Below, piece after piece: positions 8,483-42,745 of a DNA stretch of 64,000 nucleotides (positions are counted from its first letter, which is position 1; the number at the start of each line of letters is the position of its first letter). Both the position numbers and the translations under genes were made by a program. The stretch spans positions 1 to 64,000 of the forward strand of contig JAJYOG010000002.1 in NCBI GenBank assembly GCA_021785935.1, in the 5' to 3' direction. The notes under the pieces were generated by a model. That model was not told the origin of the DNA. It searched no databases and worked only from the letters and a program-made list of their open reading frames with translations. The DNA is from Actinomycetes bacterium (GTDB lineage: Bacteria > Actinomycetota > Thermoleophilia > BMS3ABIN01).

Positions 8483-8525
8483 GGCGCCCTCGAGCATCGG
8501 CGCCGGCGCGGACAGAATATTTTTC

Positions 8526-13041: not shown

Positions 13042-14270
13042 CCTGTTTTGATCCCGTCGGTACCGGCTCCAATGCCGGCTCCGGCTACTTCTGTAATCGC
13101 GGCCTCCAGCTTCGCCGCCAGGACCGGCCAGTCATATTTTTCCTCGACCAGCGCGCGAGCGCTTACACGCAGTTTCTGATAGAGCTCGTCGTCCTCGCTC
13201 AGACGTGTGACTGCCCAGGCGAAATCCTGGGGAGAATCGGCAATGAGAAGATGGCGTCCGTCTTCGACTTCGAGACCTTCCGCCCCTTTGGACGTTGAGA
13301 TTACCGGGGTCCCGGCTGCAAATGCTTCCAGAATCTTCAGCCGGGAGCCACCACCGGAGCGCAGCGGCGCCACCATGATCGAATTGGCGCGGTGCCAGGG
13401 ATGAATATCGTCGACATATCCCAGGACTCGAACCGTCGTGCCATTGTCGAGAGACAGAATTTCGGGCGTCGGATCTTTCCCCACTACACTGAAGACCGTG
13501 CCAGGATGCCGATCAGAGACCAGGGGGAAAATCTCGTCGGCAAACCACCTCACCGCGTCAATATTAGCCGGATAGCTCATCAGGCCGACAAAAAGCAGGC
13601 TGTCTCCTGGTCCTTTCGGTGCTGCCGACATCTCGGCGTACTCATCGCAGTCAACGCCATTTTCGACCACACTGACCGGGAGCTTCGGCGCCAGGGCTTT
13701 AAGCCTGGCGGCGTCATTTACGGTAACGGCGGTCGCCCCCTGGACGCGGCGCAAAACCTTCTTTTCATAATGAGCGATCCAGACGGCGCCAATCATCTTG
13801 AACCAACGCCGCGGAATTCTTTCATGGCGCACAAGAGCCTTGGTCAAGTCGCCTTCGATGTTGTGCTCGACAAGAATTTTCGGGCAATCGGCCGCCAGCA
13901 AAAAACGCCCCATGAAAAGATGTTCGCCAAGAGCTACATCGAATCGCTGCTCGTGTTGAAGGTCCTTCAGCGATTTATAGATCGTATTTTCCCAGGAGAG
14001 GATCAGCTCGGGAGGGACTCCCTGCGCCAGCCGCTTGAGATAGGCGGTGATCTTGTCCTCCGGGGATAAAAACGGCTTAAGCGCCACGGTCAGGCCCAGC
14101 CCCGCCTCCGCCAGAGCGCTTTCCTGCTCCAGGCTTGGGGCCATCCTGCTCAGGCAGAACAGATGGACCTCATGCCTTTGCGCCAGTTCGCGGCAAAGAT
14201 TAAAAATGCGAAGCCGCAAACCATCGGCCGTTGGATAGGGAATAACCGGTGCGCATATCAATATTTTCAT
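13038..14270 (-). CDS. Glycosyltransferase, TIGR03087-like GT4
   Basis: GT-B enzyme resembling the glycosyltransferases associated with exosortase/EPS loci (TIGR03087-like). It starts MKILICAPVIPYPTADGLRLRIFN, has VEHNIEGD in the middle, and the donor loop VAPLRSGGGSRLKILEAFAAGTPVIST with a GGG-RLK-LEA signature in place of a plain EX7E. No exosortase is present here. The track start is a GTG at 14279, but the ATG at 14270 forms a TGA/ATG overlap with the upstream GT2 stop and has GGTGGCTGGA before it, so I prefer 14270. Next gene downstream overlaps by four bases. Confidence 0.9.
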   Translation of the reverse strand: MKILICAPVIPYPTADGLRLRIFNLCRELAQRHEVHLFCLSRMAPSLEQESALAEAGLGLTVALKPFLSPEDKITAYLKRLAQGVPPELILSWENTIYKSLKDLQHEQRFDVALGEHLFMGRFLLAADCPKILVEHNIEGDLTKALVRHERIPRRWFKMIGAVWIAHYEKKVLRRVQGATAVTVNDAARLKALAPKLPVSVVENGVDCDEYAEMSAAPKGPGDSLLFVGLMSYPANIDAVRWFADEIFPLVSDRHPGTVFSVVGKDPTPEILSLDNGTTVRVLGYVDDIHPWHRANSIMVAPLRSGGGSRLKILEAFAAGTPVISTSKGAEGLEVEDGRHLLIADSPQDFAWAVTRLSEDDELYQKLRVSARALVEEKYDWPVLAAKLEAAITEVAGAGIGAGTDGIKTG

Positions 14271-15280
14271 TCCAGCCACCCGTACCGGTTCTTGCCGAAT
14301 TTGCCGGCGAGATAGTCTGCCAGACCACGCCAGATTGCGAGGATATACCGCCCGGCGCGTTTCCTGTGAGCACGAAGCATGGTGATGGTCTGCATCACCA
14401 CCAGGCGCCAGGCTATCCTGGCAATAGCGAGGGAAACCCTGGATCCACCCAGATTCTTGTGATAAACCTCGAGCAGATTTCTGGTCTGGTAATAATAATA
14501 CACAGGTCGATAAGCGCCACCCATGGAGCGGGATACGCGGTGGCGAATGACAGAAGCAGGCTCATAATAACTGCGATAGCCGGCGCGGCGTGCGCGCAGG
14601 CAAAAATCTACTTCTTCGCAGTACATGAACAGGCGCTCATCGAGCAGCCCCAGGCTTCGAAAGAGCCTGGCGGGCACCAGAAAAAGACAGCCGGTGATGT
14701 AATCGACCGGCCCTGCCTCATTGAATGCCAGAGAGTCTGCCTGATCCTGACCAGTATGGCTGGTAAACCCCGTACGCCTGTCGATAACGCCACCGGCAAA
14801 CCAGATAATCTCACCAGGTTCATCATAAAAAATCTTGCCGCCGGCAACGCCGATGCGCGGTTCACCGGTCTGCCGTGAAGTGTCTGCATCCACCAGATGA
14901 TTGCCCGCAGTCTCCGCCGCAAACCTGGCCACCAGCGGCTCGATGAACCCCGGTTCGACCAGGGTATCGTTATTGAGCAGGCAGATAAAGTCCGCGCCCG
15001 CTTTCAGCGCCTCTCTGATGCCCAGATTGCAGCCACCGGCAAAACCAAGATTATGGGTGGATACAATGTGACTGAACTCCGGGAACTCCCGCCGCAGGCG
15101 GTCTCCCGATCCGTCGGTGCTGCCGTTATCGACCAGTGTCACGGACAGATCCGGCCAGGTAGCCGCTTTCAGGCTCCGCAGGCAATCGGCGGTATCACTG
15201 TAGGAATTGTAGGCGACGATGACGACCCATACAGATCCGGTCTGAGGTTCAGCCTGAGACTTTACCTGCCCACTCATCAT
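14267..15280 (-). CDS. Glycosyltransferase family 2 (rhamnosyltransferase-like)
   Basis: GT-A inverting glycosyltransferase. The N-terminal domain has WVVIVAYNSYSDTADCLRSL and TLVDNGSTDGSGD, then LNNDT (DXD-equivalent) and, later, FMYCEEVDFCLRARRAGYRSYYEP, the ED-xxxR-x-R pattern of WbbL/RfbF-type rhamnosyl- and galactofuranosyl-transferases. The C-terminal basic region probably touches the membrane. With a complete dTDP-rhamnose pathway at 2533-6205, rhamnose is a reasonable donor guess but not proven. It overlaps the flippase gene by ATGA (15277-15280). Confidence 0.92.
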   Translation of the reverse strand: MMSGQVKSQAEPQTGSVWVVIVAYNSYSDTADCLRSLKAATWPDLSVTLVDNGSTDGSGDRLRREFPEFSHIVSTHNLGFAGGCNLGIREALKAGADFICLLNNDTLVEPGFIEPLVARFAAETAGNHLVDADTSRQTGEPRIGVAGGKIFYDEPGEIIWFAGGVIDRRTGFTSHTGQDQADSLAFNEAGPVDYITGCLFLVPARLFRSLGLLDERLFMYCEEVDFCLRARRAGYRSYYEPASVIRHRVSRSMGGAYRPVYYYYQTRNLLEVYHKNLGGSRVSLAIARIAWRLVVMQTITMLRAHRKRAGRYILAIWRGLADYLAGKFGKNRYGWLE

Positions 15281-16719
15281 TCGCTAGCTTTCAGCCGGCG
15301 GAAATAACCAAGGTCATCCTGGGAAATGACCCTAAAGAGAATGAGCGAGGCGGGATAAAGGACCAAACAGGCGATCGCCGCCAGAATCACGGAGTAACTC
15401 CACACAAGCAGTACGGCGCCAAAAACGGCGCCGGCTACCAAGCTGGTCAAACCAAATACCTCGATGATTCTTACGTGACCCAGGAAATGCGCGGTGAACC
15501 CGTAGAAAAGAACGAAACTGAAGAGCTCGGAGCAAAGCGTGGTGGCCGCGGCGCCCATGACACCATAGCGCGGAATCAGTATCAGGTTAAGTCCGACATT
15601 TACCGCCAACGAAGCCAGCGACCATTTCGCCATGCGCTTCTGCAATTCGATGGAAATAAAAAGATTGCCGAACAGAACACAACCAACCATGAAGGGCAGA
15701 GTTACTCCCAGCACCATAAGTACATTGATAGCCGGCTCATACTCGGCCGGAAGCAAGGTCTCGACGATCGGCCTTGCCAGAACGGCCGTCAGTATCGCAA
15801 CCCCTAATCCCGCTACCCAGATGTACTTCATTGCCTTTTCAAACAAGCGGGCCAGGCTGTCTTTTGATTCATGGAACATCCGGGACATAAGAGGCAGAAG
15901 CGACTGCACCGCTAACCAGCCGAACATGACCGGCACTTCAAAAAGCTTGTACACGGCTGCATACCAGCCAACCTCAGCTTCGGTTCTGAAAGCTCCCAGA
16001 ATCAGGACATCCACCTTGTAGTAAGCGACACTCACCAGCTGCCAGTAGAGCACGGGAAACGACTCCCGGGCCATGCCGAACAGACCGGCGCGATTAATAC
16101 GCCAGGCGCCGCCGCCCCGATCGGTTCTTTTGACGAGACGCCTGTAAATGGTAAAAGAATAACCGAACCGGACCACATTGGCGGCTAGATAAACTTCAGT
16201 CATGGCTATAACGCCGCCGCCGCCAAAAACCGCAAGAGCACCAACAGTCGTCAGCACCAGTGAAAAGATCACGTCCGCAAGAGCGCTAAGATCCATGCGC
16301 TCGTACCCCTGCAGGGCGGCTTCAACCGCCGTCGAAAGCGATGTCGGGATGATGGCTAAGGTTGCGATTGTGAGCGGCAGAGCAAAGTCAGTCTCGATCT
16401 GCGACGCCAGGACAACAGCCGCAACGCCGGCGGTGACGAAAACAGTTGTCGCTGCCCGGATTAAAAGTGTGGCGCCCAGTAGCGAGTTCGACTCGCCGCG
16501 CCGCCGGCTTACTTCCCGGATAAGGATATTGGCCGTACCAAAATCGGCTGCCATGCCGGCCATCATGACTATGACTATGATCAGCGAGTAACGGCCGTAG
16601 CCGGCATCCGCCAGGCGGCGCGCCAGCACCAGATTGAGAGCCAGGCCCAGAAGGCGGCTAACCGCCTGATAGGCAAAAAGATACGAGATGTTCCTGGCTA
16701 CGCGCCGGACAACGTTCAT
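15277..16719 (-). CDS. Wzx-type oligosaccharide flippase (MOP superfamily)
   Basis: Integral membrane transporter of about 12-14 helices that would move undecaprenyl-PP-linked repeat units across the membrane. Typical features are the N-terminal NISYLFAYQAVSRLLGLALNLVLARRLADAGYG segment (seen here in part as ARRLADAGYGRYSL), and the second-half LIPRYGVMGAAATTLCSE repeated in all MOP flippases. Length 480 is normal. The gene overlaps its neighbours on both sides by four bases, pairing it with the polymerase gene upstream (16716-18260). It is the first of three flippases in the window (also 32895 and 50747). Confidence 0.93.
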   Translation of the reverse strand: MNVVRRVARNISYLFAYQAVSRLLGLALNLVLARRLADAGYGRYSLIIVIVMMAGMAADFGTANILIREVSRRRGESNSLLGATLLIRAATTVFVTAGVAAVVLASQIETDFALPLTIATLAIIPTSLSTAVEAALQGYERMDLSALADVIFSLVLTTVGALAVFGGGGVIAMTEVYLAANVVRFGYSFTIYRRLVKRTDRGGGAWRINRAGLFGMARESFPVLYWQLVSVAYYKVDVLILGAFRTEAEVGWYAAVYKLFEVPVMFGWLAVQSLLPLMSRMFHESKDSLARLFEKAMKYIWVAGLGVAILTAVLARPIVETLLPAEYEPAINVLMVLGVTLPFMVGCVLFGNLFISIELQKRMAKWSLASLAVNVGLNLILIPRYGVMGAAATTLCSELFSFVLFYGFTAHFLGHVRIIEVFGLTSLVAGAVFGAVLLVWSYSVILAAIACLVLYPASLILFRVISQDDLGYFRRLKASE

Positions 16720-18260
16720 GAAAGGGCGGAATCCCGGCGCCGTTCCGAAAGAATAATCGCCTCGATCAAGCCAAGGATCATTGCCACCGCCGGCACGGTA
16801 GCATAATCATAGAATTTTGGCGCCGCGAAATTCGCCGCAATCATAGTTACTACCGCGAAAGCAAGGCCGATTAGCGCCGCCTGCAACATGGGATCCGTGA
16901 TCCGCTTCCAGTTGAAAGCGCTCCGGACAAGAGCCGTAACCATGATTGCCAGAAAAGCTCCCAGACCAATTATCCCATAGTAAGTCCAGAACCAGATGTA
17001 GGTATCATGGATGTACCACCTGAGGTTATCGAGCAGTCCTGGGACCGGCGGCCGGTAGTACTCGTCGAGGCCGATGCCAAACAGGGGCGCCCCCCTGATG
17101 CTCTCCCAGGCGTAATTCTGCTCGATCTGACGGCTGGTCAGACTCTGTGATTCCAAAGACTGCGAGGATAGGGCCGTGCCGAAGCGCACTGTAGCCGCAT
17201 CGATGTATTTTTGCGTCGAGCCGGTGAAAGCCGCGAGCAGCGCCAGCACCATGATAGTCACAGCCACGACCGTCAACAGCTTGATCCGCACGTTCTTGCG
17301 GTTCAGCAGCATCACCAGAACCAGCAAACCCCCCATGGGAAGGATATAACTGCGATTGAACTCGAGGATCATCCCCGCAAGCATCACCAGCGTGAAGGGG
17401 ACGTAAAAAGCCAGCCGCTTCCAGGTCCATGACTGGAGAACCATAAACATGATCCCCGTCCAGAAGCAGGCGAGAACGATTGTTCCCCCGGGCGATCTCA
17501 ATCTTTGCACGGACACGTCAACAAACGGTGTCTCCGTTGCCAGCGGTTCCGAAAGCGATATATACGTCCAGATGCCCCAATGAGGAAAAATCAGCTGCAG
17601 CAAGATTCGAACCATCGTGAAAATGCCGAGCGCATACATCACCCTGACCATCCAGCGGACCCTGTCGCGCGTATCGAGCAGGAGCAGTACGGGAATAAAC
17701 AGGAGATAAAAAGTGAGGCTGCGATTGAAATTGTACATCGAGGAGATGGTGCTGAATTCAAACCGGCGCTCGATCATGATCGCCAGCGCCTTGATCAGAA
17801 CCACAGCGAAAAAGATGGTGAAGGCAATCATCTGCGGTGATGAAAAAAGCCGGGTGAAGATGCCGATGCCCGGGTTCCGGCGAGACCAGGAAATCAGCGA
17901 AGCCGCAACGATTAAAAAGAGCAGTATTTCCTGAGCGTAATAGACAAAATTTGTGTTGACATACGAGCCAAGAAATTCAGGCGCCAGAATCGTCGACATG
18001 AAAGCGATGATCAGCACAAGGCCCCAGCGCGGCCACTTGATGACCGACCAGAATAAGGCGGCGCCGGCGATAACTACCACTATCATTTTGAAATCGTAGG
18101 CGGCGGATATGTAGCCAACCAAAACCGCGAGGATTAAAACGGCAGCGATAATCCACTGCAACTGCCGCCTCGGAAGCCGCCGCGGCAGCGCGCCATACAG
18201 ACCCTCGCCTGCTTGTGGGGTACTACCCGGCAATCCTGATGTCCCGATCTGATTCTTCAT
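16716..18260 (-). CDS. O-antigen ligase/polymerase family protein (Wzy-like)
   Basis: Polytopic membrane protein with 11-13 predicted helices and a Wzy_C/O-antigen ligase region. The long outer loop between late helices carries SLTSRQIEQNYAWESIRGAPLFGIG and the HDTYIWFWTYYGIIG segment that aligns with the catalytic-loop region of WaaL/Wzy proteins. Cytoplasmic N-terminus of about 30 basic residues. It is directly upstream of and overlaps the flippase, a typical wzy-wzx pairing. Whether it polymerises or ligates cannot be told. 28 bases separate it from another member of the family upstream. Confidence 0.9.
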   Translation of the reverse strand: MKNQIGTSGLPGSTPQAGEGLYGALPRRLPRRQLQWIIAAVLILAVLVGYISAAYDFKMIVVVIAGAALFWSVIKWPRWGLVLIIAFMSTILAPEFLGSYVNTNFVYYAQEILLFLIVAASLISWSRRNPGIGIFTRLFSSPQMIAFTIFFAVVLIKALAIMIERRFEFSTISSMYNFNRSLTFYLLFIPVLLLLDTRDRVRWMVRVMYALGIFTMVRILLQLIFPHWGIWTYISLSEPLATETPFVDVSVQRLRSPGGTIVLACFWTGIMFMVLQSWTWKRLAFYVPFTLVMLAGMILEFNRSYILPMGGLLVLVMLLNRKNVRIKLLTVVAVTIMVLALLAAFTGSTQKYIDAATVRFGTALSSQSLESQSLTSRQIEQNYAWESIRGAPLFGIGLDEYYRPPVPGLLDNLRWYIHDTYIWFWTYYGIIGLGAFLAIMVTALVRSAFNWKRITDPMLQAALIGLAFAVVTMIAANFAAPKFYDYATVPAVAMILGLIEAIILSERRRDSALS

Positions 18261-18288: not shown

Positions 18289-20061
18289 TTAGACCATACA
18301 TTCATCATTCGATAAGCTAATGACCGCCCCTCCCCGGCGCCAGGGGCGAATATTGGCGTAGAGGGCTCCGACAGCGGCAATCAGCACCAGGCTGGGCTTG
18401 TCATAAAGAATCATCAGGTGACCGCCGTGAAGGAATAAAATCAGCAGCGAAACCAGTACCAGGGTGGCCGGTGCTCCCGGCCGCTTCCAGGCGTGCCGCC
18501 CCTCATTGATGAAAAACAAAACCAGTCCCCCAATCAAAAGGAACCCCAGCCAGCCGAATTCGTTCAGCCAGGTCAGCGGCAGACTGTCCACCGCATGATG
18601 ATCGGTACCTGGAGAATTGAAGAGGCCAACACCAAGCGGATTTGTAAACAGAAGATCGCGGGTAACCAGGGCCAGGTTCGCGCGAGTGCTGATTGAGTCC
18701 CCACGGGACATCCACTGCTGGGCAACAACATCGGGCAGCTTTAGCCTGCCCTTTTGCACGACAACCTGGCCCACGGTAACGGCGCTATCCTGATCAACAA
18801 TGCGAAAGTCCGTCCCGGCGTTCTCGCGATGTTCAAACCGCGGGTTCTCCAAATAGAACGCAGCCGTAGTCCAACTGCCGGTATCAGTCTTGTTGAAGGA
18901 AGGAGTAGCGGTGTACGCTCCCGCGCCGATTCCAGCCGTTTCATTCTTGGAGTCGTATTCCACGTGCACGGCTCCCAGGCCACGATCAATGTAGCGCATG
19001 GTCAGAGTTACGGGCCCGGGACCGTCGTCCCCAAAAAATCCCTGGTCGATGTCAAAATAAACATATTTGTTTCTCGGAGAAACACCACCGGCATCGCCAT
19101 CGTTAAACGAAACCGGACCGTCGTTTGCCTGGATCATGTGTAGTCCTGTTTCACTAACCCCACCGCTGAAATCCGCGGTGACTTCTTCCCGGTTAACATA
19201 ATCAAAAGTCACCAGTGCCACTGCCACAAGTGCGATCGGCGCCACCCAGCGGATGTTCCTGACAAACCAGCGCCTGGCCAGGAAAAACAGACCGGGTAGC
19301 AGAATCGCCAGCCCAATCAGCCAGGAGCCGCGGCTGAATGTCAGAAAAACCGCAACGAACATAAGTGTAATGGCGGCAACCGCTAGCAGACGCCGGCGCC
19401 AGAAGAGCAACAGGGCAAGGGGCGCCGATCCGAGCAGAATGGCGCCTACAAACCCGGGATGGCCGACCAGCGAGCGTATGCGATAGAACTGATCGCTGGC
19501 AGCCACGCGCGCGTCGGCGCCGATCACATCTATCTGGATGGATTCAAAGAGCGGATTTGATTTGAGCGCGTACTCGATCACTCCAAAGGCGCTGATCACT
19601 AATGCGGCGCCAACGAGAGCGGCCAGAACCAGCTTCACATCAAAAGCATCGCGCATACCGAAACGGACCAGGAAAAAGACGCCACACCCAGTGACGATCC
19701 AATTGATCGTGACGGTGAGCGTCTCCGGCGTAAAGGCGCCACGGACCAGTAAAATCATCGCGAGCAGGGCCACCATCCCATCGGTGCGGTCCACTCGGGG
19801 CAGCTTCTTCTCCACCGCCCAGCGGGCAGCCAGCAACGCCCAGGAGATGACAAACGAGGCCCGGAAAAAAGTAATCAGCGCCGGGCCGAAGCCGGCACGG
19901 CCGGTCCCGATCAGATTGAGAAGGTGGAAGATACCCGTGGCCAGGGTGATGACGATGCTGACCCGCCATGCCTGGTAAAGGCAGTTCGAGCCAAAAAAGC
20001 GGCGCCTGCCGCCACCGCTTGACGCCTCTTCAGATTCGGGAGAGTTGACGCAGGGCTTCAT
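18289..20061 (-). CDS. O-antigen ligase-like protein with inserted jelly-roll-like domain
   Basis: Second Wzy/WaaL-type protein of this operon, 590 residues. Helices cover about 35-290, with the conserved RIRSLVGHPGFVGAILLG and FLTFSRGSWLIGLA segments. A soluble stretch at about 295-440 is then inserted before the last helices. That stretch (GGVSPRNKYVYFDID, PVTLTMRYIDRGLGAVHVEYDSK, WTTAAFYLENPRF) resembles beta-sandwich carbohydrate-binding-like domains of secreted proteins and would face outside. The ligase loop NPLGVGLFNSPGTDHHAVDSLPLTWL follows. Role of the insert is inferred: holding the glycan acceptor or product near the active site. It lies 16 bases after the reductase gene. Confidence 0.85.
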   Translation of the reverse strand: MKPCVNSPESEEASSGGGRRRFFGSNCLYQAWRVSIVITLATGIFHLLNLIGTGRAGFGPALITFFRASFVISWALLAARWAVEKKLPRVDRTDGMVALLAMILLVRGAFTPETLTVTINWIVTGCGVFFLVRFGMRDAFDVKLVLAALVGAALVISAFGVIEYALKSNPLFESIQIDVIGADARVAASDQFYRIRSLVGHPGFVGAILLGSAPLALLLFWRRRLLAVAAITLMFVAVFLTFSRGSWLIGLAILLPGLFFLARRWFVRNIRWVAPIALVAVALVTFDYVNREEVTADFSGGVSETGLHMIQANDGPVSFNDGDAGGVSPRNKYVYFDIDQGFFGDDGPGPVTLTMRYIDRGLGAVHVEYDSKNETAGIGAGAYTATPSFNKTDTGSWTTAAFYLENPRFEHRENAGTDFRIVDQDSAVTVGQVVVQKGRLKLPDVVAQQWMSRGDSISTRANLALVTRDLLFTNPLGVGLFNSPGTDHHAVDSLPLTWLNEFGWLGFLLIGGLVLFFINEGRHAWKRPGAPATLVLVSLLILFLHGGHLMILYDKPSLVLIAAVGALYANIRPWRRGGAVISLSNDECMV

Positions 20062-20077: not shown

Positions 20078-21145
20078 CTACTTTCCAAAAAGTTTCTTGG
20101 CGACCAACCGTTTGGGACTGCGCCGGGGCAAAAGGTCAATCTTCGCCCGGGCGAACTCGCGCTTGATGGGAATGTGGTAAGGACAGTCCCGTTCGCATAT
20201 GCCGCAATTATCGCAGGCTTCGAGATTGGGTTTGATCACCCCGTAATGAGCGCGAACCCAATCAGCGGAATGGTAACGATCGAAGTACTCATACCAGCGC
20301 AACAATGTTTTGATGTCGATGCCCTGAGGGCACGCCACGCAGGTATCACAGCGGCGGCAAAAAACCTTGAAACATTTCTTTTCCGATTCCGCGATCGCGT
20401 CCATGATCTCATCACGGCTAACCGGAATGGAATTGGCTTCAGTATCCAGATTCTGCTTAAGCTCATCCAGGGAATAGGTGCCAACAATGGTGGCGTCCGG
20501 CCGGCAGTCAAAGACATAACGCAGGGCTACGTCCGCCTTGCCGACATAGCCGAAAACCATGGGCTTGATCGTAACCAGGCCAATGCCACGGCGCCGCAGC
20601 TCCTCAATCAGCTTTTCGGACCCTTCGGCCGCCTCGCGGTCGACATAATTCAGTGGAAACTCGACAACGTCGAATGCTGCCATCTCCAGAGCCGCCAGGA
20701 TCGTCTCGGGCTGATGGGCGCTGATGCCAACATACTTGATGTAGCCGGCGCTCCTCATCTCGTCGAGGGCGTGATAGGCGCCGCCCGGACTCATAATTTC
20801 CTTCAGTACCGGCAGCGTCAGAACATTATGAAGCGAATAAATATCGATAACGTCAGTGTCGAAGTTGCCCAGGCTCTCCCTGATCTCCTTCAGCGCCTCG
20901 TTCTTCTTGCGCTTGTGCGTGCTCGTGCCGAGCACCACCTGGTGCCGCTGTTTGCGTAAAGCCAGGCCGATCTTGTTTTCAGAATCGCGGTACATGCGGG
21001 ACGTATAGAAAAGGTTGACCCCGCGCTCCCGCGCCGTGCCGATGATATCACCGGCCTCCTTCTGGCTGATGTACTGAAAAGGTATGCCGCCCAAACCGAG
21101 CCTGGAGACTTCCACCCCTGTATTTCCCAGTTTATGCTTCTGCAT
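20078..21145 (-). CDS. Aldo/keto reductase with C-terminal ferredoxin-type 4Fe-4S domain
   Basis: NAD(P)H- or ferredoxin-linked oxidoreductase. The AKR barrel (LGNTGVEVSRLGLGGIPF at the start; YSLHNVLT, GVSAHQPE-like YVGISAHQPET; YNYVDREAAEG-type segment) fills the first ~260 residues. The tail has CRRCDTCVACPQGIDI and CDNCGICERDCPYHIP, two Cys-rich sets typical of 4Fe-4S clusters. Such fused AKRs are found in anaerobes. It is coupled to a methyltransferase upstream and may reduce or oxidise a modified sugar made by the radical SAM genes of the operon. The start at 21145 has AGGGG six bases before ATG and replaces the longer track start at 21187. Confidence 0.92.
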   Translation of the reverse strand: MQKHKLGNTGVEVSRLGLGGIPFQYISQKEAGDIIGTARERGVNLFYTSRMYRDSENKIGLALRKQRHQVVLGTSTHKRKKNEALKEIRESLGNFDTDVIDIYSLHNVLTLPVLKEIMSPGGAYHALDEMRSAGYIKYVGISAHQPETILAALEMAAFDVVEFPLNYVDREAAEGSEKLIEELRRRGIGLVTIKPMVFGYVGKADVALRYVFDCRPDATIVGTYSLDELKQNLDTEANSIPVSRDEIMDAIAESEKKCFKVFCRRCDTCVACPQGIDIKTLLRWYEYFDRYHSADWVRAHYGVIKPNLEACDNCGICERDCPYHIPIKREFARAKIDLLPRRSPKRLVAKKLFGK

Positions 21146-22166
21146 TTTGTCCCCTGTCATCCCGGCACGACTCCCGTTTGACCGCATAGACCGTCATCGC
21201 CGACGAGCGGCTGGTGCCGTTCACGGCCCGGCGATAATATGAAAGCAGCTTCGTCATTACGCGATCCACGATCGTCGGATTGTGAATAACATCATTCTTG
21301 CTCCCGAGCCGCCGCTCCTTGAAATATTGCCAGTTCATCTGGCAGTAATAAAGTGGGGTCTCATAAACAGTCTCCGCCACACAAAAACCGGCAGTCGCCA
21401 GCAGTTTGGCAATTGAATCCGGAGTGAAGCTGTACAGGTGCCTGGGAAGCTCGTAGATAAACCAGTCGCGGCCCAGCCAGCGGGCTTCAGGAGCCGCCGC
21501 GTTCTGCGTGTATATAACCAGCAGCGCGCCATCGGGAGTGATGCGGCTGATCTCTTCAAGCGTGTGGCGGGGACTCTGCACATGCTCGAGCACGCCCCAA
21601 AGTGTGACAACATCGAAAGATTCGTCGGGAAATTTTGCGTCTTCCAGCTGACCGGTCACGGCGTCGATGCCGACGTCCTTCACCAGCTCAACCATCCGCT
21701 CGTTATAATCGACTCCGGCAACGTCCCAGCCGCACTGCTTCATGAAGTAAAGGAAGGAGCCATCGCCGAATCCGATATCCAGCAGCCGGCCGCTATCACG
21801 ATATCTGTCGATATGTCCCTTGCGCGGGCCCAACAACCGGCCGAGCTCATCCATGCTTCGATCTTTTAGACCCGCCGCCTTGTTGTAAAGGTCGTAATCA
21901 TCCTGGGGATAAAAACGGGCCATCTCTTCATAGGAGGGTCGCGGGTTAACGAAAACCAGTCCGCAATCCTGACACCGTACCAGCGGAAACTCGCCCTCGA
22001 TGCCAAAAAGCCGGTCGCCGCCCACAAAAAGGAGTTCGTGATGGGTGCCACCACACAGATCACAGGCGCCGGTCCGCGCACCATGGCCGGCTCCCACGTC
22101 CTGGCCGTTTTGCACGCCCCGGTTCGATTGGCTGGCGGCGCCGGCTGCGTCCTGTCTGGGACTCAC
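21132..22166 (-). CDS. Class I SAM-dependent methyltransferase with N-terminal zinc motif
   Basis: Predicted methyltransferase, 344 residues. The N-terminal CDLCGG...VRCQDCGLVFVNPRPS pairs two CxxC motifs, as in the sugar C-/O-methyltransferases and tRNA-type enzymes of polysaccharide loci. The SAM-binding core is RLLDIGFGDGSFLYFMKQCG followed by VAGVDYNERMV and TLWGVLEHVQSPR. The ORF track starts at 22223, but GTG 22166 is preceded by GGGGAAGGG at good spacing and forms a GTGA overlap with the upstream radical SAM stop, so I place the start there. It is a paralogue of the methyltransferases at 23179 and 48316. Confidence 0.92.
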   Translation of the reverse strand: MSPRQDAAGAASQSNRGVQNGQDVGAGHGARTGACDLCGGTHHELLFVGGDRLFGIEGEFPLVRCQDCGLVFVNPRPSYEEMARFYPQDDYDLYNKAAGLKDRSMDELGRLLGPRKGHIDRYRDSGRLLDIGFGDGSFLYFMKQCGWDVAGVDYNERMVELVKDVGIDAVTGQLEDAKFPDESFDVVTLWGVLEHVQSPRHTLEEISRITPDGALLVIYTQNAAAPEARWLGRDWFIYELPRHLYSFTPDSIAKLLATAGFCVAETVYETPLYYCQMNWQYFKERRLGSKNDVIHNPTIVDRVMTKLLSYYRRAVNGTSRSSAMTVYAVKRESCRDDRGQNAEA

Positions 22167-23113
22167 TTCCAACCCTTCCCCGCCGGATACCAGACGTTGC
22201 GGGTATAGGCCCAGTAATTGCAATCGCGGCAGAGATCGATCTCATTCCAGCGTCCCTGCTTGTGAAGATCACGATAACGTTTGAATTCGGGGCTGTTCCA
22301 GACTTCAGCGATCGTCTGCTGGTTCAGATCCCCGATAATGCCCAAATGATCGAAGTCGACATTGCAGAAGCTGACCTTGCCATCCCAATTGATGGAAAAA
22401 GAATTCCACAGGAAAGTGCAGGGATAGCGTTTTTTCGGTAGCTGCATCAAGCTCTGCACCTCGGGCCTGTGACCTCCCCAATTGATCGCCGGGATCAACA
22501 GCACGTCCACTTCGTGAGGGCCCCACTGCTCGCGGAATAGACCGATCTCGTTTTTAGTCTCCGCCATCACGATCAGCTGCACCTTGACCTTCGGCCAGAC
22601 GAAGCCTCGCTCCTTGCGCATGGCCAGAAAGCGCTCGATGTTGGTGATGACTTCGTCATATTTAGTCGAACCGCGTACCTTTTTGTAGGTCTCCGCGGTA
22701 GCGGCATTGACGCTGAAAAGGAGAACGTCCAGCTTGGAATTGAGGATCTTCTCAGCCTTTTCCTCGTCCAGAAGCAGGGCGTTGGTGTCCATGTTGAGTA
22801 GCGTACTCGGCGCCGCCGTCTTGATGCGGTCGATGAGCTCGAAAATGTGTGGCGCCTTCAGAGGCTCGCCGTCCTTGTGTAGACGCACTTCGGCCGGGGC
22901 GAAGTGCGAGATCTCCTCGGCCAGCTTGTCGAACAGCGCCATGTCGATCTCACCCACCGGGCGTGTCAGATCCTTGCGCGGGCACATGTTGCAACGCAGG
23001 TTGCACTGGTTGGTGGGCTCGATATTGATGCGTGACGGAAAGCCGGGATTGACCTCCTGTGAACGCAGGGCTTTATCCTTGACGAGCGTTTTGGCTGTAG
23101 ATTTAAGCGACAT
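22163..23113 (-). CDS. Radical SAM/SPASM protein
   Basis: Radical SAM enzyme, 316 residues. CxxxCxxC is at Cys37/41/44 (NQCNLRCNMCPRK), followed by HKDGEPLKAPHI (GGEP-equivalent) and a C-terminal SPASM-like set (YPCTFLWNSF, KVSFCNVDFDH, IDLCRDCNYW). Relatives in glycan loci are thought to oxidise or epimerise sugars or amino sugars, but no substrate is established. It sits between two methyltransferase genes and overlaps the downstream one by GTGA. The start ATG lies eight bases after a perfect TATAAT (23122-23127) with little Shine-Dalgarno, so a leaderless transcript may start here inside the operon. Confidence 0.92.
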   Translation of the reverse strand: MSLKSTAKTLVKDKALRSQEVNPGFPSRINIEPTNQCNLRCNMCPRKDLTRPVGEIDMALFDKLAEEISHFAPAEVRLHKDGEPLKAPHIFELIDRIKTAAPSTLLNMDTNALLLDEEKAEKILNSKLDVLLFSVNAATAETYKKVRGSTKYDEVITNIERFLAMRKERGFVWPKVKVQLIVMAETKNEIGLFREQWGPHEVDVLLIPAINWGGHRPEVQSLMQLPKKRYPCTFLWNSFSINWDGKVSFCNVDFDHLGIIGDLNQQTIAEVWNSPEFKRYRDLHKQGRWNEIDLCRDCNYWAYTRNVWYPAGKGWK

Positions 23114-23121
23114 ATGTATCC

Positions 23122-23127
23122 ATTATA
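23122..23127 (-). promoter_or_regulatory. Perfect -10 box (TATAAT) before the radical SAM gene
   Basis: Minus-strand TATAAT ends eight bases before ATG 23113, in the 65-base gap after the methyltransferase gene. It implies an internal, leaderless promoter. No -35 consensus is visible. Confidence 0.5.
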
Positions 23128-23178
23128 GTAATAGCATTGGAGCTTCCGCCAGGTCAGCCTGACTGCTTGGCCTGATGC

Positions 23179-24129
23179 TTAGGCCTTCCGGCTGTAGGAC
23201 TCGATCATGATCCCCTGCCCCAGCTTCGGTGTAATCTTGGCCGCGGGAGCAATAACGGCTTTACGCAGGACACGATCGAACCTGGATGAAGGAAAAACCT
23301 TGCCCCGGCGGTTCTCGATGCTGCGTTCGGTGACGAAAGCAGCTCCATAATGCAAGAGGCCTTCCTGTCTGAAATCATTTTTTCCCAAAAGCCTTCCCAG
23401 GGTACCTGGCGAAAAGTGCCATACATGCCTCGGTGCTTCGACGTTGAACCAGTGCGGGCCGAACAATTTTGCTTCCCAGCAATCGATATTGTGGGTCTGC
23501 ACTACCAGCAGCCCGTTATCTGCCAGGTGCTCGTGGCATCGTTTCAGACAGTCGTTGGGATCGTCCAGATCTTCGATCACCCCATAGAGGGTGATGCAGT
23601 CGTATTTGCCGCCCCAGTCCTGTTCGTGTTCGGCGCCTCCCTTGACGTCGAGCCCCAGCTGATCGCGTGCGTAGGCAGCCACGTTTTCGTTAAGTTCGAT
23701 GCCGCCAACCTCCCAGCCCCGGCGTTGCATGCCCAACATGAAATAGCCGTCACCACAGCCGACATCCAGAAGCTTGCCCGGACGCTGACGCCGGTTGATC
23801 TCGTTTATCTGAGTGGAGAACTTCGCGATGCGCTTGTCCGCCTGGGCGCGCTTGCGGCCGAGCGCCCAATCAAACAGGGGATAAAGATCGGAAAAAGAGC
23901 GCCGGCGCTCTTCAAAAGCAGGACGCGGTGACATGCGCAGGGTGCCGCAATCAGGACAGCGGACGATGCGATATTCCTCGACCGACCCAAGGAGAGTATC
24001 TTTCACTTTCCACCATGGACGTGAGAGGGCGCTACCGCAGACAGCACAATCAACTACCGTTTCGGCTTCTTCAAACGTGGGAAATTCCGAATCCGTCAAC
24101 GGGCTTTCCGTATTTTCGGTATCAGCCAT
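23179..24129 (-). CDS. Class I SAM-dependent methyltransferase with N-terminal zinc motif
   Basis: Predicted methyltransferase, 316 residues. The N-terminal domain has VDCAVCGSAL and VRCPDCGTLRMSPRP, a two-CxxC zinc site. The SAM core is LLDVGCGDGYFMLGMQRRG, then GIELNENVAAYA, and the acidic post-motif TLYGVIEDLDDPND. The C-terminal part (HVWHFSPGTLGRLLG) matches its paralogue at 21132 (HLYSFTPDSIAKLLA). Likely target: a sugar of the glycan or a nucleotide sugar, by context. Only three bases separate it from the B12-type radical SAM gene upstream, so it is co-transcribed. Confidence 0.92.
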   Translation of the reverse strand: MADTENTESPLTDSEFPTFEEAETVVDCAVCGSALSRPWWKVKDTLLGSVEEYRIVRCPDCGTLRMSPRPAFEERRRSFSDLYPLFDWALGRKRAQADKRIAKFSTQINEINRRQRPGKLLDVGCGDGYFMLGMQRRGWEVGGIELNENVAAYARDQLGLDVKGGAEHEQDWGGKYDCITLYGVIEDLDDPNDCLKRCHEHLADNGLLVVQTHNIDCWEAKLFGPHWFNVEAPRHVWHFSPGTLGRLLGKNDFRQEGLLHYGAAFVTERSIENRRGKVFPSSRFDRVLRKAVIAPAAKITPKLGQGIMIESYSRKA

Positions 24130-24132
24130 GGA

Positions 24133-25581
24133 TTATTTCCCGCCGCCACGGCGTTTTTTAAGTTGCCACTCGATCGGGACCCGGAAATCCCGCTTGCCGA
24201 CACGCCAGGACGCCAGTTTGTGCATGGACCGGTAGGCGTAGCCCTTCGGCCCACCGGCGGCCATCTTCTGCTTGAGTTCCGGCCCCGGCGAGGCAAAGGG
24301 CATATAGAAATCGATAATCATGTCAACTTTTTCCTTGTAGACGGGATCGACCCAGGGCGTGTGCAGCCTGGTCAGGTCGAAGTCAGCCCAGCCCTCGAGC
24401 GTTTCCGGTGGTTTGAAACCCAGGCGCACCGCCTCGTCATAAAGAGGCGCTCCCGGATACGGGGCAAAGAAGAAACCGTGCACCTCGAAATTTTCGTTGA
24501 TCGCCTTGATCCCCTCGATCATTCGCAGCGTGGCTTCGATATCCTTTTCCGGCTCTCCAGGAAATCCGAACATGGTAGTGAAGCGAGCGATGATTCCCAG
24601 CCGGTCGCAGATTCTCGATACATGCAGGGTGTCATCCACGGTAGTCTGCTTGCCGATCTGCTCCAACGCCGCCTGCGAACCCGATTCGGCTCCCAGCAAC
24701 AGGCGCCGGCAGCCCGCGTCGTAGACCAACTGCCTCAACTCAGCGGGAAAATCGATGAACTGCTTCGTCCGCACATCGGCCGCCCATGTAAACTTGAGGC
24801 CCCGCTCGATTATTTTCTCGCAGATGGCATGAACCCGTTTTTTGCTCACAAAAAAATTGGTGTCGGCGAAATCAATGGCGTTGACGCCGTAATCATTGAC
24901 CAGGCGCTCGAGGTCATCGACAACGCGTTCGGGCGAGAAACCAACCCAGCCGCGTCCGTACATCGAGGTCTCGGCGCAAAACCCGCAACCGAAGGGACAG
25001 CCCTGTGAGGAAAAATATTTCATGGTTCTGGTGCCCAGATCCGGCACCATGTACTTCTCAATGTCGATGATGTCATATGGCGTGGACGGAAACTGGTCGA
25101 CCTCCAGAAGCTTGGGATGTTCGGTAATCACTGGTTTGCCGTCGACCTTGTAGCATAGCCCGGTGATTCCTTCTGGAGATGTTCCGTCACGCAGACATCG
25201 CGCCAGTTCCGTAGCCGCAATCTGGCCCTGGCCGCGGATAACGTAATCGATATAGTTTTCCGCCAGTGTCTGCTCCGGCAGCATGCTGGCATGGTATCCG
25301 CCCCAGACCACCGGTATATCCGGATAAGCTTCCTTGATCGCACGCGAAACAGAGACAGCATCACTTATCTGCCATCCTGTCATCACCGAGAGCCCTACAT
25401 ACAAGGAACCCCGTGCCGCCGCCAGTATCTTGGGGAGATGAGGATTGATGACGCGGCCATCCACCAGTTCAACCTCGAATCCATCGGCGATTAGCGGCGC
25501 CGCGACGGCCTGCAAGGGCAGAGGAGCCCAGACATTGCTCTCGCGCTTGAGGCGCGGAAATACCAGTGTAACCTTACTCAA
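24133..25581 (-). CDS. B12-binding-domain radical SAM protein
   Basis: Class B-type radical SAM protein (BchE/HpnJ-like architecture), 482 residues. Residues 1-140 form the Rossmann-like cobalamin-binding fold (VELVDG, YVGLSVMTG, VVWGGYHASMLPEQ, YVIRGQGQ), without the DxHxxG base-off motif, as is usual in this class. The radical SAM cluster is Cys195/199/202 (SSQGCPFGCGFCAE). Relatives carry out methylation, ring closure or other radical steps at unactivated carbons. The closest paralogue in the window is 34624, by the shared WAPLPL, MTG, VVWGGYH and SQGCP blocks. It starts with TTG, first gene of the long minus-strand operon. Substrate unknown. Confidence 0.92.
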   Translation of the reverse strand: MSKVTLVFPRLKRESNVWAPLPLQAVAAPLIADGFEVELVDGRVINPHLPKILAAARGSLYVGLSVMTGWQISDAVSVSRAIKEAYPDIPVVWGGYHASMLPEQTLAENYIDYVIRGQGQIAATELARCLRDGTSPEGITGLCYKVDGKPVITEHPKLLEVDQFPSTPYDIIDIEKYMVPDLGTRTMKYFSSQGCPFGCGFCAETSMYGRGWVGFSPERVVDDLERLVNDYGVNAIDFADTNFFVSKKRVHAICEKIIERGLKFTWAADVRTKQFIDFPAELRQLVYDAGCRRLLLGAESGSQAALEQIGKQTTVDDTLHVSRICDRLGIIARFTTMFGFPGEPEKDIEATLRMIEGIKAINENFEVHGFFFAPYPGAPLYDEAVRLGFKPPETLEGWADFDLTRLHTPWVDPVYKEKVDMIIDFYMPFASPGPELKQKMAAGGPKGYAYRSMHKLASWRVGKRDFRVPIEWQLKKRRGGGK

Positions 25582-27490: not shown

Positions 27491-28915
27491 CTAGGCGTTC
27501 ATCCAGGTTGGTTTCTTGTGCTTGAGGGTGGCGCGGCTGATGAGCTTGCGCGAACCATGCCAGGCCTTGAAGGCCACGGGGTGTTTCTCGAGAAAGTACA
27601 TGATCGGCCACAAACTCCGGCTGCGCGTTCCGAATGCCAGCATCAATTCGCGCAGACGCACCAGGTAGTCACTGGGAAGACCCGGCTGGTTGAGCACCGA
27701 TCCCTTCCAGATTTCCGTCAGCCTCTCGTGATCCTTGCTGATCAGGCCTTCCTTCAGGCAAAAATCGTAAAACGGGGTCCCCTCGAAGGGATAGAAGATC
27801 GTGATCTGGTAAATATCGGGATGCAGAAGGTTGATCAGCTCGAGCGTATCCTGGATAAGGGCGCGTGTTTCCTTGGGCAGCCCGATCATGACAAAGGCAA
27901 AGGTCTTGATGTCATATTTTTTTGCCAGGGCCACGGCGTTGATAACCTCTTCCTGCTTGGTTTTCCGGTTCAACATCTCGCGGCGATACTGCTCGTTGCC
28001 TGATTCCAGCCCGAAGGAGACCGCCCGGGCGCCGGCTCCGGCCAGGAGCCGCATCATCTCATCGCTGGCCGTCTCGGGGCGCGTGCTGAACGAGAACGGC
28101 AGATGGATGTCCTGATACATCTCGCAAAACTCGCGCAGGCGCTTGCGGTTAAGGATGAAGGTCTCATCCACGAAGCGGACGTAATCAATCTGCTTGTCCC
28201 GCCTGAATTTCTCCACCTCGGCGATGATGCGCTTGGCTGATTTTTCGCGATGGTATTTGCCCTTGCCCTTGTATATCTGCTGCATGACCGGGGTCAGGCA
28301 ATACGGGCAGCAGTAGGGGCATCCGCGCGAAGTCTCGAGATCGCCGAAGATCTCTGCTTCGGGACTGAAAACTTTCTGGTAATGATTACGGAAGTGGCGG
28401 TCGTCCCAGATATCCCAGGTCGGCATTGCCAGAATATCCATGTCCTGCACCAGGTCCCGCACATCGTTTCTGTAGATCTCTCCATCCTGTTTCACCCACA
28501 GGTTAGGCATATCGCGAAGATCGGCACCGCTCTCAATGCGATCGATGAGATCGATGAGCGAGGCTTCACCCTCGCCGCGCACGAGCATGTCTACCCGCTC
28601 GTCGGCGATAACTTCTTCGGGGGCGATGGTTGGATGCGGACCGCCGACGACGACAGGCACGCCGGGGTCAGCCATTCGCAGGATAGCTTGCGCGGTCTCC
28701 CATTCGGTGCTGCGGCAGGAGACTCCGATCATGTCGGGTTGGTACTCCTCCAGGGCCTGGCGATAGGCGGGCGCGACCTCATGGTCTTCAAGGAAAGTAA
28801 TGTCCATCAACCGGCAATCATGGCCTTCCCTTTCGAGGGTTCCGGCCAGGGAGCTGAGACCCACCTGCGGAGAGCGGGCGCGCGCGACATTGGGATAGAT
28901 AAATAATATCTTCAT
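27491..28915 (-). CDS. B12-binding-domain radical SAM protein
   Basis: 474-residue cobalamin-type radical SAM protein. N-terminal Rossmann-like domain (MKILFIYPNVARARSPQVGLSSLAGTL start, VVVGGPHPTIAPEE, LVRGEGE) without DxHxxG; cluster motif Cys199/203/206 in TSRGCPYCCPYC; then FVDETFILNRKRL, SFGLESGN and GLPKET, all typical. Function unknown. ATG 28915 is preceded by AAGGTGA, and TATACT (28943-28948) is about 27 bases upstream, so it may be transcribed from its own promoter although it follows the asparagine synthase pair. It ends 41 bases from the convergent beta-helix gene. Confidence 0.92.
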   Translation of the reverse strand: MKILFIYPNVARARSPQVGLSSLAGTLEREGHDCRLMDITFLEDHEVAPAYRQALEEYQPDMIGVSCRSTEWETAQAILRMADPGVPVVVGGPHPTIAPEEVIADERVDMLVRGEGEASLIDLIDRIESGADLRDMPNLWVKQDGEIYRNDVRDLVQDMDILAMPTWDIWDDRHFRNHYQKVFSPEAEIFGDLETSRGCPYCCPYCLTPVMQQIYKGKGKYHREKSAKRIIAEVEKFRRDKQIDYVRFVDETFILNRKRLREFCEMYQDIHLPFSFSTRPETASDEMMRLLAGAGARAVSFGLESGNEQYRREMLNRKTKQEEVINAVALAKKYDIKTFAFVMIGLPKETRALIQDTLELINLLHPDIYQITIFYPFEGTPFYDFCLKEGLISKDHERLTEIWKGSVLNQPGLPSDYLVRLRELMLAFGTRSRSLWPIMYFLEKHPVAFKAWHGSRKLISRATLKHKKPTWMNA

Positions 28916-28971: not shown

Positions 28972-30858
28972 TTACCCATCAATGAAGCTGCGGTTCCAGA
29001 GCTCGAAAATGAGAAGCATCCAAACCTGCCATACACCCTTGCCCGTTTTTTCGTGCCGGTCTACCACTGTCTTCAGATAAGCCTCGTCGAACAAGCCCCG
29101 GCTTCTGGCCTGATCGGAAAATATTATGTCGCGCGCGGTTTCGCGCAGATGCCCCTGCAACCAGGGAGAAGCAGGCGCCGCGAAGCCTGATTTATCACGA
29201 TAAATCGTATCGTGCCTGAGAATCCCCTCACCCATCTTCTTGAGGATGTACTTGGACTCTGTTCCCTGCAGCACTGCATCATCGGACAGGCTGGCGGCAA
29301 ACTCAACAAAATGATGATCGAGATAAGGTGTCCGCGCCTCGACGGCAAACGCCGAGCAGGTTCGATCAAGAATGCGCAGCATATTCGGCATCATGTTCTT
29401 CATGTCCAGATACTGCATGCGATCGATGATCGTACTCGCGGGAGCTGTGGCGAAACCGGTGAGATACCGTTGGTCCGTCGAGTAGCCGCCCAGATCCGCC
29501 TTCAGCTTCCCCGAGAAGAGCTTTGCCTTTTCGGAGGGTTTGAAGGTCGAAACGATACGCAGTGACTTTTCACCCGAAGGCTGCATGATGCTGCCAAGCA
29601 ACCCCTTGATCGTATTCCTGCCAAAGAATCCCATCGTGGCTGAAGCCTGCTTCCAGGCGCCGGCTGGATTTAAGTGTTTAAGTGAACCGGCGAATTTCTC
29701 GCGGATGTCCGCCAGAATGTAGCGGTTATAACCCGCCAGCAGCTCGTTACTACCCTGCCCTCCGAGGACCACTTTGACAAAGCGGGCCGTGAATTCGTTG
29801 AGGATGAAATATGAATGCAGGCCGGGGCTTACCGTAGGTTCGTCCACGTGCCAGATGGCCTTTAACATTGTATCCATGAAGGTTTCAACAGTCGGAAAGA
29901 CCTCGATGGTCTCCTGCCTGACGTTGGCGTTCACGGCCGACTCATTGGCAAAGTCACGCTCGTCGTAGGTTTTTTCCCGGAAGCCTGCGGTAAGGGCGAT
30001 GATATTTTCGCGGTCGGTTCTGGCGGCGAGTGATGTCAGAAAACTGGAGTCGATACCGCCGCTCAAATGGATTCCCAGAGGCGTAACTCCCTCGGATTCA
30101 AGCGCCACGGCCTCCTCCAGAATCGCCAGGCCCCGCTGCTTGAGTTCGTCTTCGTCCCAGGGATGATTAGGCTCGAAATACATGTCCCAGTAGTGTTCGA
30201 TCCGGCCTTTGCCGCCCTCGACGCTGCCGTCCAGCACATACATCGAGCCGGGAGGTACAGCCATGATGTCCTCGAACATCGTCTCGCTGTCAAAGATGTA
30301 GGAAATGCCGAAGAAGTCCGCCATCCCCCTGCTGTTGACCTGCCTTTTAGTCCTGGGATCGGCGAGAATACCCTTGATCTCCGAAGCAAACAACAGGCCG
30401 GAAGCGCCGTGAGAATAATAGAGCGGCTTGATGCCGATCCGGTCACGAGCCAATATCAGGCGCCGGTTGCGGGCATCCCAGAGAGCCAGGCCGTACATAC
30501 CGTTGACACGGTCGAGGAATTTCTCTCCCTCGTCCTCGTATAGATGAAGCAGCACCTCGCAGTCGCTCGAAGTCGAAAACCGGTGCCCTCTCGATTCCAG
30601 CAGCAAGCGCAGCTCGGCGTGATTGAAGACGCGGCCGTCACAGACCAGGGTCAGGTTTCCATCTTCATTTTTTAGCGGTTGGGGAACAGAGACCGTCGAA
30701 GGGATCTTTAAAAAACAGTGGCTTAACCCTACATTGCCGTCCGTGAAGCTGGAGCGGTCATCGGGTCCGCGGTGAGCTATCGCCGCCAACAGAGGGGTCA
30801 GCTCTTCTTCAGTTACAACGGAGGTTGGTGATTTGAGGATACCGGCTATGCCACTCAT
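28972..30858 (-). CDS. AsnB-like amidotransferase with degenerate glutaminase site
   Basis: 628-residue protein of the glutamine-hydrolysing asparagine synthase family; in polysaccharide loci such proteins amidate uronic acids. The synthetase half is intact: the ATP loop is LSGGIDSSFLTSLAA. The glutaminase half is not: the protein starts MSGIAG, so the catalytic Cys2 is Ser (codon AGT); the RLSIIDL block of the partner reads FLKIPST; NGEIYN reads DGRVFN. HRGPDD is kept. It may use free ammonia, borrow ammonia from the intact AsnB upstream, or do another adenylation-type reaction. It lies 141 bases downstream of that gene, and an 8-bp hairpin with a T-run is 14 bases before its ATG. Little Shine-Dalgarno is seen. 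Confidence 0.9.
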   Translation of the reverse strand: MSGIAGILKSPTSVVTEEELTPLLAAIAHRGPDDRSSFTDGNVGLSHCFLKIPSTVSVPQPLKNEDGNLTLVCDGRVFNHAELRLLLESRGHRFSTSSDCEVLLHLYEDEGEKFLDRVNGMYGLALWDARNRRLILARDRIGIKPLYYSHGASGLLFASEIKGILADPRTKRQVNSRGMADFFGISYIFDSETMFEDIMAVPPGSMYVLDGSVEGGKGRIEHYWDMYFEPNHPWDEDELKQRGLAILEEAVALESEGVTPLGIHLSGGIDSSFLTSLAARTDRENIIALTAGFREKTYDERDFANESAVNANVRQETIEVFPTVETFMDTMLKAIWHVDEPTVSPGLHSYFILNEFTARFVKVVLGGQGSNELLAGYNRYILADIREKFAGSLKHLNPAGAWKQASATMGFFGRNTIKGLLGSIMQPSGEKSLRIVSTFKPSEKAKLFSGKLKADLGGYSTDQRYLTGFATAPASTIIDRMQYLDMKNMMPNMLRILDRTCSAFAVEARTPYLDHHFVEFAASLSDDAVLQGTESKYILKKMGEGILRHDTIYRDKSGFAAPASPWLQGHLRETARDIIFSDQARSRGLFDEAYLKTVVDRHEKTGKGVWQVWMLLIFELWNRSFIDG

Positions 30859-30872
30859 AGGCCGGCTGAAAA

Positions 30873-30891
30873 ATCATCTGAGGCAGATGAT
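30873..30891 (-). terminator. Hairpin with T-run before the degenerate asnB (terminator or attenuator)
   Basis: Minus-strand ATCATCTG-CCT-CAGATGAT followed by TTTTC: a perfect 8-bp stem with a 3-base loop. It lies after the intact asnB and only 14 bases before the next ATG. A TACAAT box at 30983-30988 could start a ~119-base leader that contains it, which would make it an attenuator. Confidence 0.55.
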
Positions 30892-30999
30892 GGTAAGTTG
30901 GTTTCTCTGATCGTCATCTCGGTGATTAGCACCCCTGTAAACAGCATGGTTGCAGCGTGTTAACGCATATCGCCAAAAAATAATTGTACACTAAAACGC

Positions 31000-34358: not shown

Positions 34359-34414
34359 CTGGGAACATGGTTATGACAAGGTAATAAGCCCCTTATTCCA
34401 CAAAGGTGAGTGGC

Positions 34415-34612: not shown

Positions 34613-34623
34613 GGATCGCTGGC

Positions 34624-36111: not shown

Positions 36112-36146
36112 AGTTTACCGGAGTTTCAAGGAGTTCGCTTCCCGCA

Positions 36147-39434: not shown

Positions 39435-39463
39435 GGGGCGGAAAAACCTGTGCGCCCAGGCCG

Positions 39464-42742: not shown

Positions 42743-42745
42743 GCG

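Follow-up and report, generated by a model that had tools for sequence, protein, structure and literature searches.

A probable sugar-tailoring module with a non-canonical ferredoxin-fused aldo/keto reductase in an actinobacterial surface-glycan locus

What would a bacterium make with two kinds of radical S-adenosylmethionine (SAM) enzyme, two methyltransferases and an aldo/keto reductase (AKR) fused to a ferredoxin, all encoded side by side within a glycan locus? We addressed this question for five adjacent minus-strand genes and the polymerase-like gene that follows them in a 64,000-nucleotide stretch of DNA (the window), the start of a 194 kb contig from a Thermoleophilia metagenome-assembled genome (MAG; 1.86 Mb, 79% complete). 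A first-pass annotation had proposed a six-gene cassette at 20078-25581 that makes an unusual sugar and polymerizes it. Pfam hits bore out the identities of the first five genes, and all six lie in the stated order on the minus strand; the interval itself spans five of the genes, and the sixth, at 18289-20061, lies just outside it. We think it likely that these genes, with their oxygen-sensitive radical enzymes, are central to a module that tailors a sugar anaerobically in a cell-surface glycan locus, with a non-canonical ferredoxin-AKR among its enzymes. In order of transcription they are:

24133..25581, minus strand: B12-binding radical SAM enzyme, CxxxCxxC motif intact (Pfam B12-binding 2e-18, Radical_SAM 2e-16)
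23179..24129, minus strand: MT1, class I SAM methyltransferase with an N-terminal CxxC...CxxC ribbon (Methyltransf_23, 1e-24)
22163..23113, minus strand: SPASM/twitch radical SAM enzyme, BtrN-like (Pfam Radical_SAM and SPASM)
21132..22166, minus strand: MT2, class I SAM methyltransferase with an N-terminal CxxC...CxxC ribbon (Methyltransf_23, 5e-28)
20078..21145, minus strand: AKR with a dicluster ferredoxin domain (Aldo_ket_red, PF00248, 1e-25; Fer4 dicluster)
18289..20061, minus strand: Wzy/O-antigen-ligase-like membrane protein with a beta-sandwich insert (weak Wzy_C match)

The genes are as closely packed as first described, with intergenic gaps of 3, 65, -4, -14 and 16 bases when the likelier starts of MT2 and the AKR are used. 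MT2, listed from TTG 22223, probably starts at GTG 22166, which creates a 4-base GTGA overlap with the stop codon of the SPASM gene. The AKR is listed from ATG 21187, from which its residue numbers are counted here; its orthologues begin at ATG 21145, probably the actual start.

The AKR had been described as an aldo/keto reductase with two Cys-rich cluster motifs; its active site is not that of a canonical reductase. Using the solved AKRs 9yeb and 1ynp to set the catalytic positions, we found that the catalytic Asp is replaced by Tyr61 and the catalytic Lys by Ser89 in 16 of 16 orthologues. Tyr66 and His120 are kept and invariant in the same 16 proteins, as are both four-cysteine cluster motifs (Cys277/280/283/286 and Cys325/328/331/335). 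A decaying pseudogene was ruled out, as all 16 genomes have an intact gene that is under strong constraint (ratio of nonsynonymous to synonymous substitution rates, dN/dS, about 0.07-0.10, indicating strong purifying selection), and the AlphaFold2 model (mean predicted local distance difference test score 84) matches solved AKRs at 4e-17. Judged by these residues, the protein is no canonical AKR, two of the four tetrad positions having changed in every orthologue, and it is probably not an ordinary NAD(P)H carbonyl reductase. Most likely the barrel has been kept as a substrate-binding scaffold and the two 4Fe-4S clusters are used for electron transfer.

This replacement sets the cassette AKR apart from other ferredoxin-fused AKRs, which have the same domain order (barrel, then C-terminal dicluster ferredoxin) and the same eight cluster cysteines but retain the Asp/Lys pair where every cassette orthologue has Tyr/Ser. 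Ten ferredoxin-AKR paralogues from the same family of bacteria, about 34% identical and several of them encoded in the same locus, retain all four catalytic positions (Asp or Glu, Tyr, Lys, His), and so do twelve more distant ferredoxin-AKRs. In the loci of relatives (L027, L030, L032, L033 and L037) there is a second ferredoxin-AKR type, which shares about 34% identity with that of the cassette and has Asp/Glu and Lys in place; no copy of it was found in the window genome. Within the DNA read around ten distant AKR genes, nine loci held no homologue of the other cassette genes and the tenth held one distant homologue of the B12-binding radical SAM enzyme. A contig scan with the AKR returned family members only, plus two spurious matches whose genomes yielded nothing, and a search of 195 and 199 genomes from the two phyla of those matches gave a single distant match with an intact tetrad; failure to find a match there is weak evidence.

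The second radical SAM gene of the cassette had been labeled a SPASM enzyme. We found four auxiliary cysteines (Cys232/250/295/298), invariant among orthologues and all aligning with cysteines of BtrN, and none after Cys298, whereas a full SPASM domain has two auxiliary clusters and a longer cysteine set. BtrN, the best PDB match (8.5e-16), oxidizes a cyclitol hydroxyl and belongs to the twitch enzymes, its auxiliary cluster being bound by four cysteines (PMC9012708). By its cysteine pattern the cassette enzyme is of this single-auxiliary-cluster, BtrN-like twitch type and not a full SPASM protein. It is 76-91% identical in 12 relatives, and the CxxxCxxC cysteines (Cys37/41/44) are kept in 12 of 13 aligned rows, the thirteenth lacking its N-terminus where the contig is cut. 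Like BtrN, a 2-deoxy-scyllo-inosamine dehydrogenase of the butirosin pathway, it combines a radical SAM core with one four-cysteine auxiliary cluster; unlike BtrN, it sits in a wall-glycan locus with B12-binding radical SAM and AKR partners, and the two proteins are remote in sequence, with the middle of the protein unaligned. A glycan setting recurs among its homologues: in other Actinomycetota families, 5 of 5 have a glycosyltransferase gene no more than 1 kb away, and remoter ones (Lawsonia, Solidesulfovibrio, Brachyspira plasmids) stand beside methyltransferase, DegT, AsnB or rhamnose/rfb/glycosyltransferase genes.

The B12-binding radical SAM enzyme exceeds the Pfam cut-offs for both PF02310 and PF04055, is 75-86% identical in relatives and has invariant Cys195/199/202. 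Its nearest solved relative is AprD4 (1.2e-13), a radical SAM diol dehydratase that works with the reductase AprD3 (PMC5461906); it falls below the NCBIfam AprD4 equivalog cut-off (74.2 bits against 500). BtrN and AprD4 both act on aminoglycoside sugars or cyclitols. The sugar had been suggested to be C-methylated, which cannot be inferred from these genes because B12-binding radical SAM enzymes include non-methylases, such as OxsB, which contracts a ring (PMC13142503). MT1 is 66-80% identical in relatives, with Cys28/31/58/61 invariant, and MT2 adjoins the SPASM and AKR genes there.

For the sixth gene, first described as a polymerase with an inserted domain, the insert was recovered and the polymerase identity is weak by sequence. 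On PF04932 (Wzy_C) the window protein scores E 0.0037 and 17.5 bits against a gathering score of 31.7, a weak match, and 13 of 13 orthologues also match weakly (best E 3e-8). In the AlphaFold2 model the membrane helices are broken by an all-beta stretch of jelly-roll form (residues about 293-437, ~150 residues), whose Foldseek matches (E about 4e-4) include Eph ligand-binding domains as well as CBM6 carbohydrate-binding modules. The protein resembles the Wzy/O-antigen ligase family (PF04932) in being a polytopic membrane protein of a glycan locus and differs from it in carrying a ~150-residue external insert whose fold matches are CBM6-like. Glycan binding by the predicted beta-sandwich is plausible.

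Do these genes belong together? A check of co-occurrence across genomes indicated that they do, the genes traveling together throughout the family and in glycan loci. AKR homologues come from Thermoleophilia MAGs, including Bacterium BMS3Abin01, DeMMO3_11, SURF_19 and B_ACT_11, and the family that carries the cassette, a poorly known subsurface group, is apparently known from MAGs alone. Of 19 family genomes, 16 hold an orthologue of the AKR (68-84% identical), 16 one of the SPASM enzyme and 18 one of the polymerase-like protein; at the thresholds used, none of the three was found in 41-42 genomes of other families in the same class. The cassette is syntenic in relatives, with protein identities of 65-93%, and wherever a family assembly covers the whole site the genes keep this order. 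MT2, AKR and polymerase genes are adjacent in all 13 loci from other genomes, preceded by the SPASM gene in 12 (the exception is a contig end), and the B12-binding radical SAM gene and MT1 lie upstream of this block in the order seen in the window. Cassette members that seem to be missing mostly correspond to contig ends at the expected place or to incomplete MAGs. Independent loss was considered for four genomes, of which three (G010, G014, G006) have contigs that end at the expected place and the fourth (G018) one that ends just short of it, so no clean loss was seen. In Nei-Gojobori comparisons with three same-genus genomes, which are rough because synonymous divergence is near saturation, the five tailoring genes gave dN/dS values of about 0.05-0.10 and the polymerases values of about 0.18-0.23. 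The cassette is not a chance arrangement, because synteny at this level of identity is accompanied by dN/dS values of about 0.05-0.10.

The six genes behave as one unit, conserved in order and co-occurrence across the family, but they are not the complete set, since relatives add two further B12-binding radical SAM genes, B12x and B12y. These map to a single site:

23114..23178, minus strand: 65-base junction that separates MT1 from the SPASM gene; site of B12x (often with a methyltransferase, MTx) and B12y in relatives

The order B12-binding radical SAM enzyme, MT1, B12x, (MTx), B12y, SPASM enzyme was found in G001, G002, G005, G007, G010, G011, G013 and G016, and the locus read from G009 starts at B12x; both extra genes are present in all nine. 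Measured against the G001 copies, identities among relatives are 73-83% for B12x and 80-90% for B12y, and B12y orthologues also occur in G003, G004, G006 and G012. In the window, a MAG assembly, the junction holds neither gene and no remnant of either, and the best match to B12y in the window genome is 44% identical and lies on another contig. As assembled, the window carries a shortened version of a conserved cassette that elsewhere includes at least two additional B12-binding radical SAM genes.

The window genome does encode a tandem B12-binding radical SAM pair (L139 4125-7100, contig C10) that neighbors a large transporter-like gene and, in a tree of few sequences, clusters with B12x and B12y. 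We rejected relocated orthologues as an explanation, the 42-44% identity to B12x/B12y marking diverged paralogues; by sequence the two genes are anciently diverged and keep the order B12x-B12y. Six enzymes of the cassette type (the one at 24133, B12x, B12y, B12p, B12q and 34624) fall into a single subfamily (31-66% identity), to which the remaining four B12-binding radical SAM enzymes of the locus do not belong.

The surroundings of the cassette are those of a glycan locus of ~55 kb (about 6.2-57 kb in the window), which contains Wzx, Wzy, family 2 and family 4 glycosyltransferases (GT2, GT4), PMT, DegT, AsnB, methyltransferases and an initiating sugar transferase, with ten radical SAM genes in all:

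6209..18260, minus strand: downstream glycan genes: Wzy, Wzx, GT2, three GT4, SPASM radical SAM enzyme, GT4, Wzy
26037-27449, plus strand: NosD-like beta-helix gene
27491..28915, minus strand: further B12-binding radical SAM enzyme, upstream of the cassette
28972..32895, minus strand: two asparagine-synthase-type amidotransferases, kept in relatives
32895..56944, minus strand: upstream glycan genes: Wzx, four B12-binding radical SAM enzymes, two PMT, DegT aminotransferase; also SPASM radical SAM enzyme, three GT2, methyltransferases, GT4, WcaJ/WbaP-type initiating sugar transferase
61124-62209, minus strand: LCP-family glycopolymer transferase, slightly upstream of the glycan locus

The gene order of the downstream block matches in several relatives, and the LCP-family transferase suggests attachment of a glycan to peptidoglycan. 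Two other genes of the upstream part drew our attention. One (39464-40882, minus strand) encodes a B12-binding radical SAM enzyme closest to HpnJ, at 276 bits against a cut-off of 577 and with 64-65% identity in relatives. The other (49931-50692, minus strand), amid radical SAM and glycosyltransferase genes, encodes a PNP_UDP_1-type phosphorylase with 57-73% identity in relatives that could remove 5'-deoxyadenosine or related by-products.

How might such a module work? The scheme we propose starts from what can be read directly (gene content and order, purifying selection, replaced catalytic residues, intact cluster cysteines and glycan context), and its chemistry, that is, the sugar substrate, the order of steps and the role of the AKR, is inferred from similarity to known protein families and from genomic setting. 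The BtrN-like radical SAM enzyme would oxidize one hydroxyl of a nucleotide- or polyprenyl-linked sugar, which one or more B12-binding radical SAM enzymes would then remodel by C-methylation, dehydration/deoxygenation or ring rearrangement. MT1 and MT2, the two Zn-ribbon methyltransferases, would methylate the sugar, and the ferredoxin-AKR would carry electrons to or from a radical SAM step or a substrate bound in its barrel. Wzx would flip the glycan, and the Wzy-like protein would polymerize or ligate it, its external beta-sandwich perhaps holding the modified chain. The glycan locus and the sugar or cyclitol substrates of BtrN and AprD4 favor the first-pass proposal of a sugar pathway, and by its enzyme families the module probably makes an unusual sugar.

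Several observations weigh against this scheme. The BtrN and AprD4 matches are distant, and the sugar substrate and its product are putative. The B12-binding radical SAM enzyme scores alike on the NCBIfam BchE, ApyD and HpnJ models, all far under cut-off, and as models with different reactions score alike, we rejected these scores as a guide to its reaction. The polymerase identity of the Wzy-like protein is weak by sequence, the fold match of its insert is modest (best TM score to target about 0.5), and the electron-transfer role of the AKR is itself an inferred one. The window genome also lacks the two B12-binding radical SAM genes that all relatives carry, so either B12x and B12y are dispensable or have been replaced, or the MAG junction at 23113-23179 is wrong.

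One rival account keeps the sugar and changes the chemistry. An AprD4-like dehydratase or BtrN-like dehydrogenase would produce a ketone, and the ferredoxin-AKR would reduce it as AprD3 does, drawing electrons from ferredoxin or NAD(P)H, to give a deoxy or epimerized sugar. AprD4 and BtrN are indeed the closest solved relatives, and the apramycin pathway likewise pairs a radical enzyme with a reductase-like partner, the NADPH reductase AprD3 (PMC5461906). The cassette AKR also retains Tyr66, His120 and a conserved G-x-Y...E-L-x2-N-L near the C-terminal end of its barrel. That partner, however, is here a ferredoxin-fused AKR with an altered active site, and the loss of Asp and Lys in 16 of 16 orthologues runs contrary to the usual hydride transfer, in which Tyr and Lys relay a proton; we regard this account as unlikely. 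An assembly of independent tailoring enzymes, each acting on a different sugar of a variable glycan, seems to us similarly unlikely: radical SAM and methyltransferase genes are common in surface-glycan loci (PMC4267127), and in relatives the B12-MT1 and SPASM-MT2-AKR-polymerase sub-blocks are set apart by other genes, but the order is fixed at 65-93% identity across the family and the tailoring genes are far better kept than the polymerases.

The product could also lie outside the glycan, as a modified lipid, a hopanoid-like head group or a carbocycle formed by HpnJ-like ring contraction. The HpnJ-like enzyme and the phosphorylase of the upstream part would fit such a pathway, as would the non-methylase chemistry of some B12-binding radical SAM enzymes, exemplified by ring contraction in OxsB (PMC13142503). 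Yet the HpnJ-like protein is under its family cut-off and outside the cassette, the part of the locus that was annotated showed no hopanoid genes, and the neighbors of the cassette are Wzx, Wzy, GT2, GT4, the initiating sugar transferase and the LCP glycopolymer transferase; we regard a non-glycan product as improbable.

Returning to the sugar-tailoring module, a bolder version of it concerns the AKR. The protein may represent a new enzyme type, a ferredoxin-AKR in which the hydride-transfer machinery (Asp, Lys) has been exchanged for cluster-based one-electron chemistry. Its role would be that of redox partner to radical SAM enzymes (one BtrN-like, several B12-binding) that make an undescribed wall-polymer sugar, and it would be fixed across an anaerobic Actinomycetota family. 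We offer this tentatively, as a possibility that is rather less probable than otherwise.

Radical SAM enzymes in surface-glycan loci are already known, and this cassette with its altered AKR appears undescribed. Among open-access papers we found nothing direct on the gene set or on active-site loss in a ferredoxin-AKR, and none that gives reactions to radical-SAM-rich surface-glycan gene sets, which recur in anaerobes. The closest arrangements are plasmid loci of Brachyspira, Lawsonia and Solidesulfovibrio, in which a SPASM-type homologue likewise stands beside methyltransferase, DegT, AsnB, rfb or glycosyltransferase genes; they differ in gene order, share 26-31% identity and have no AKR annotated by the homologue. 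The Brachyspira plasmid block has been described (PMC4267127). With a BtrN-like enzyme beside several B12-binding radical SAM enzymes, and with an AKR that carries a defined, testable active-site change, the cassette supplies specific proteins in which to look for radical chemistry on structural sugars and for an AKR fold put to new use.

Two further features of these loci were recorded. Just upstream of the B12-binding radical SAM gene in a related locus (L054 13496-15445, minus strand) is a gene for a ~650-amino-acid protein with no Pfam match, which has counterparts in G002, G007, G010 and G011; the equivalent site in the window holds the NosD-like beta-helix gene. Past the downstream end of the glycan locus, at 842-2368 on the plus strand, the window encodes a serine recombinase with Resolvase and Recombinase domains.

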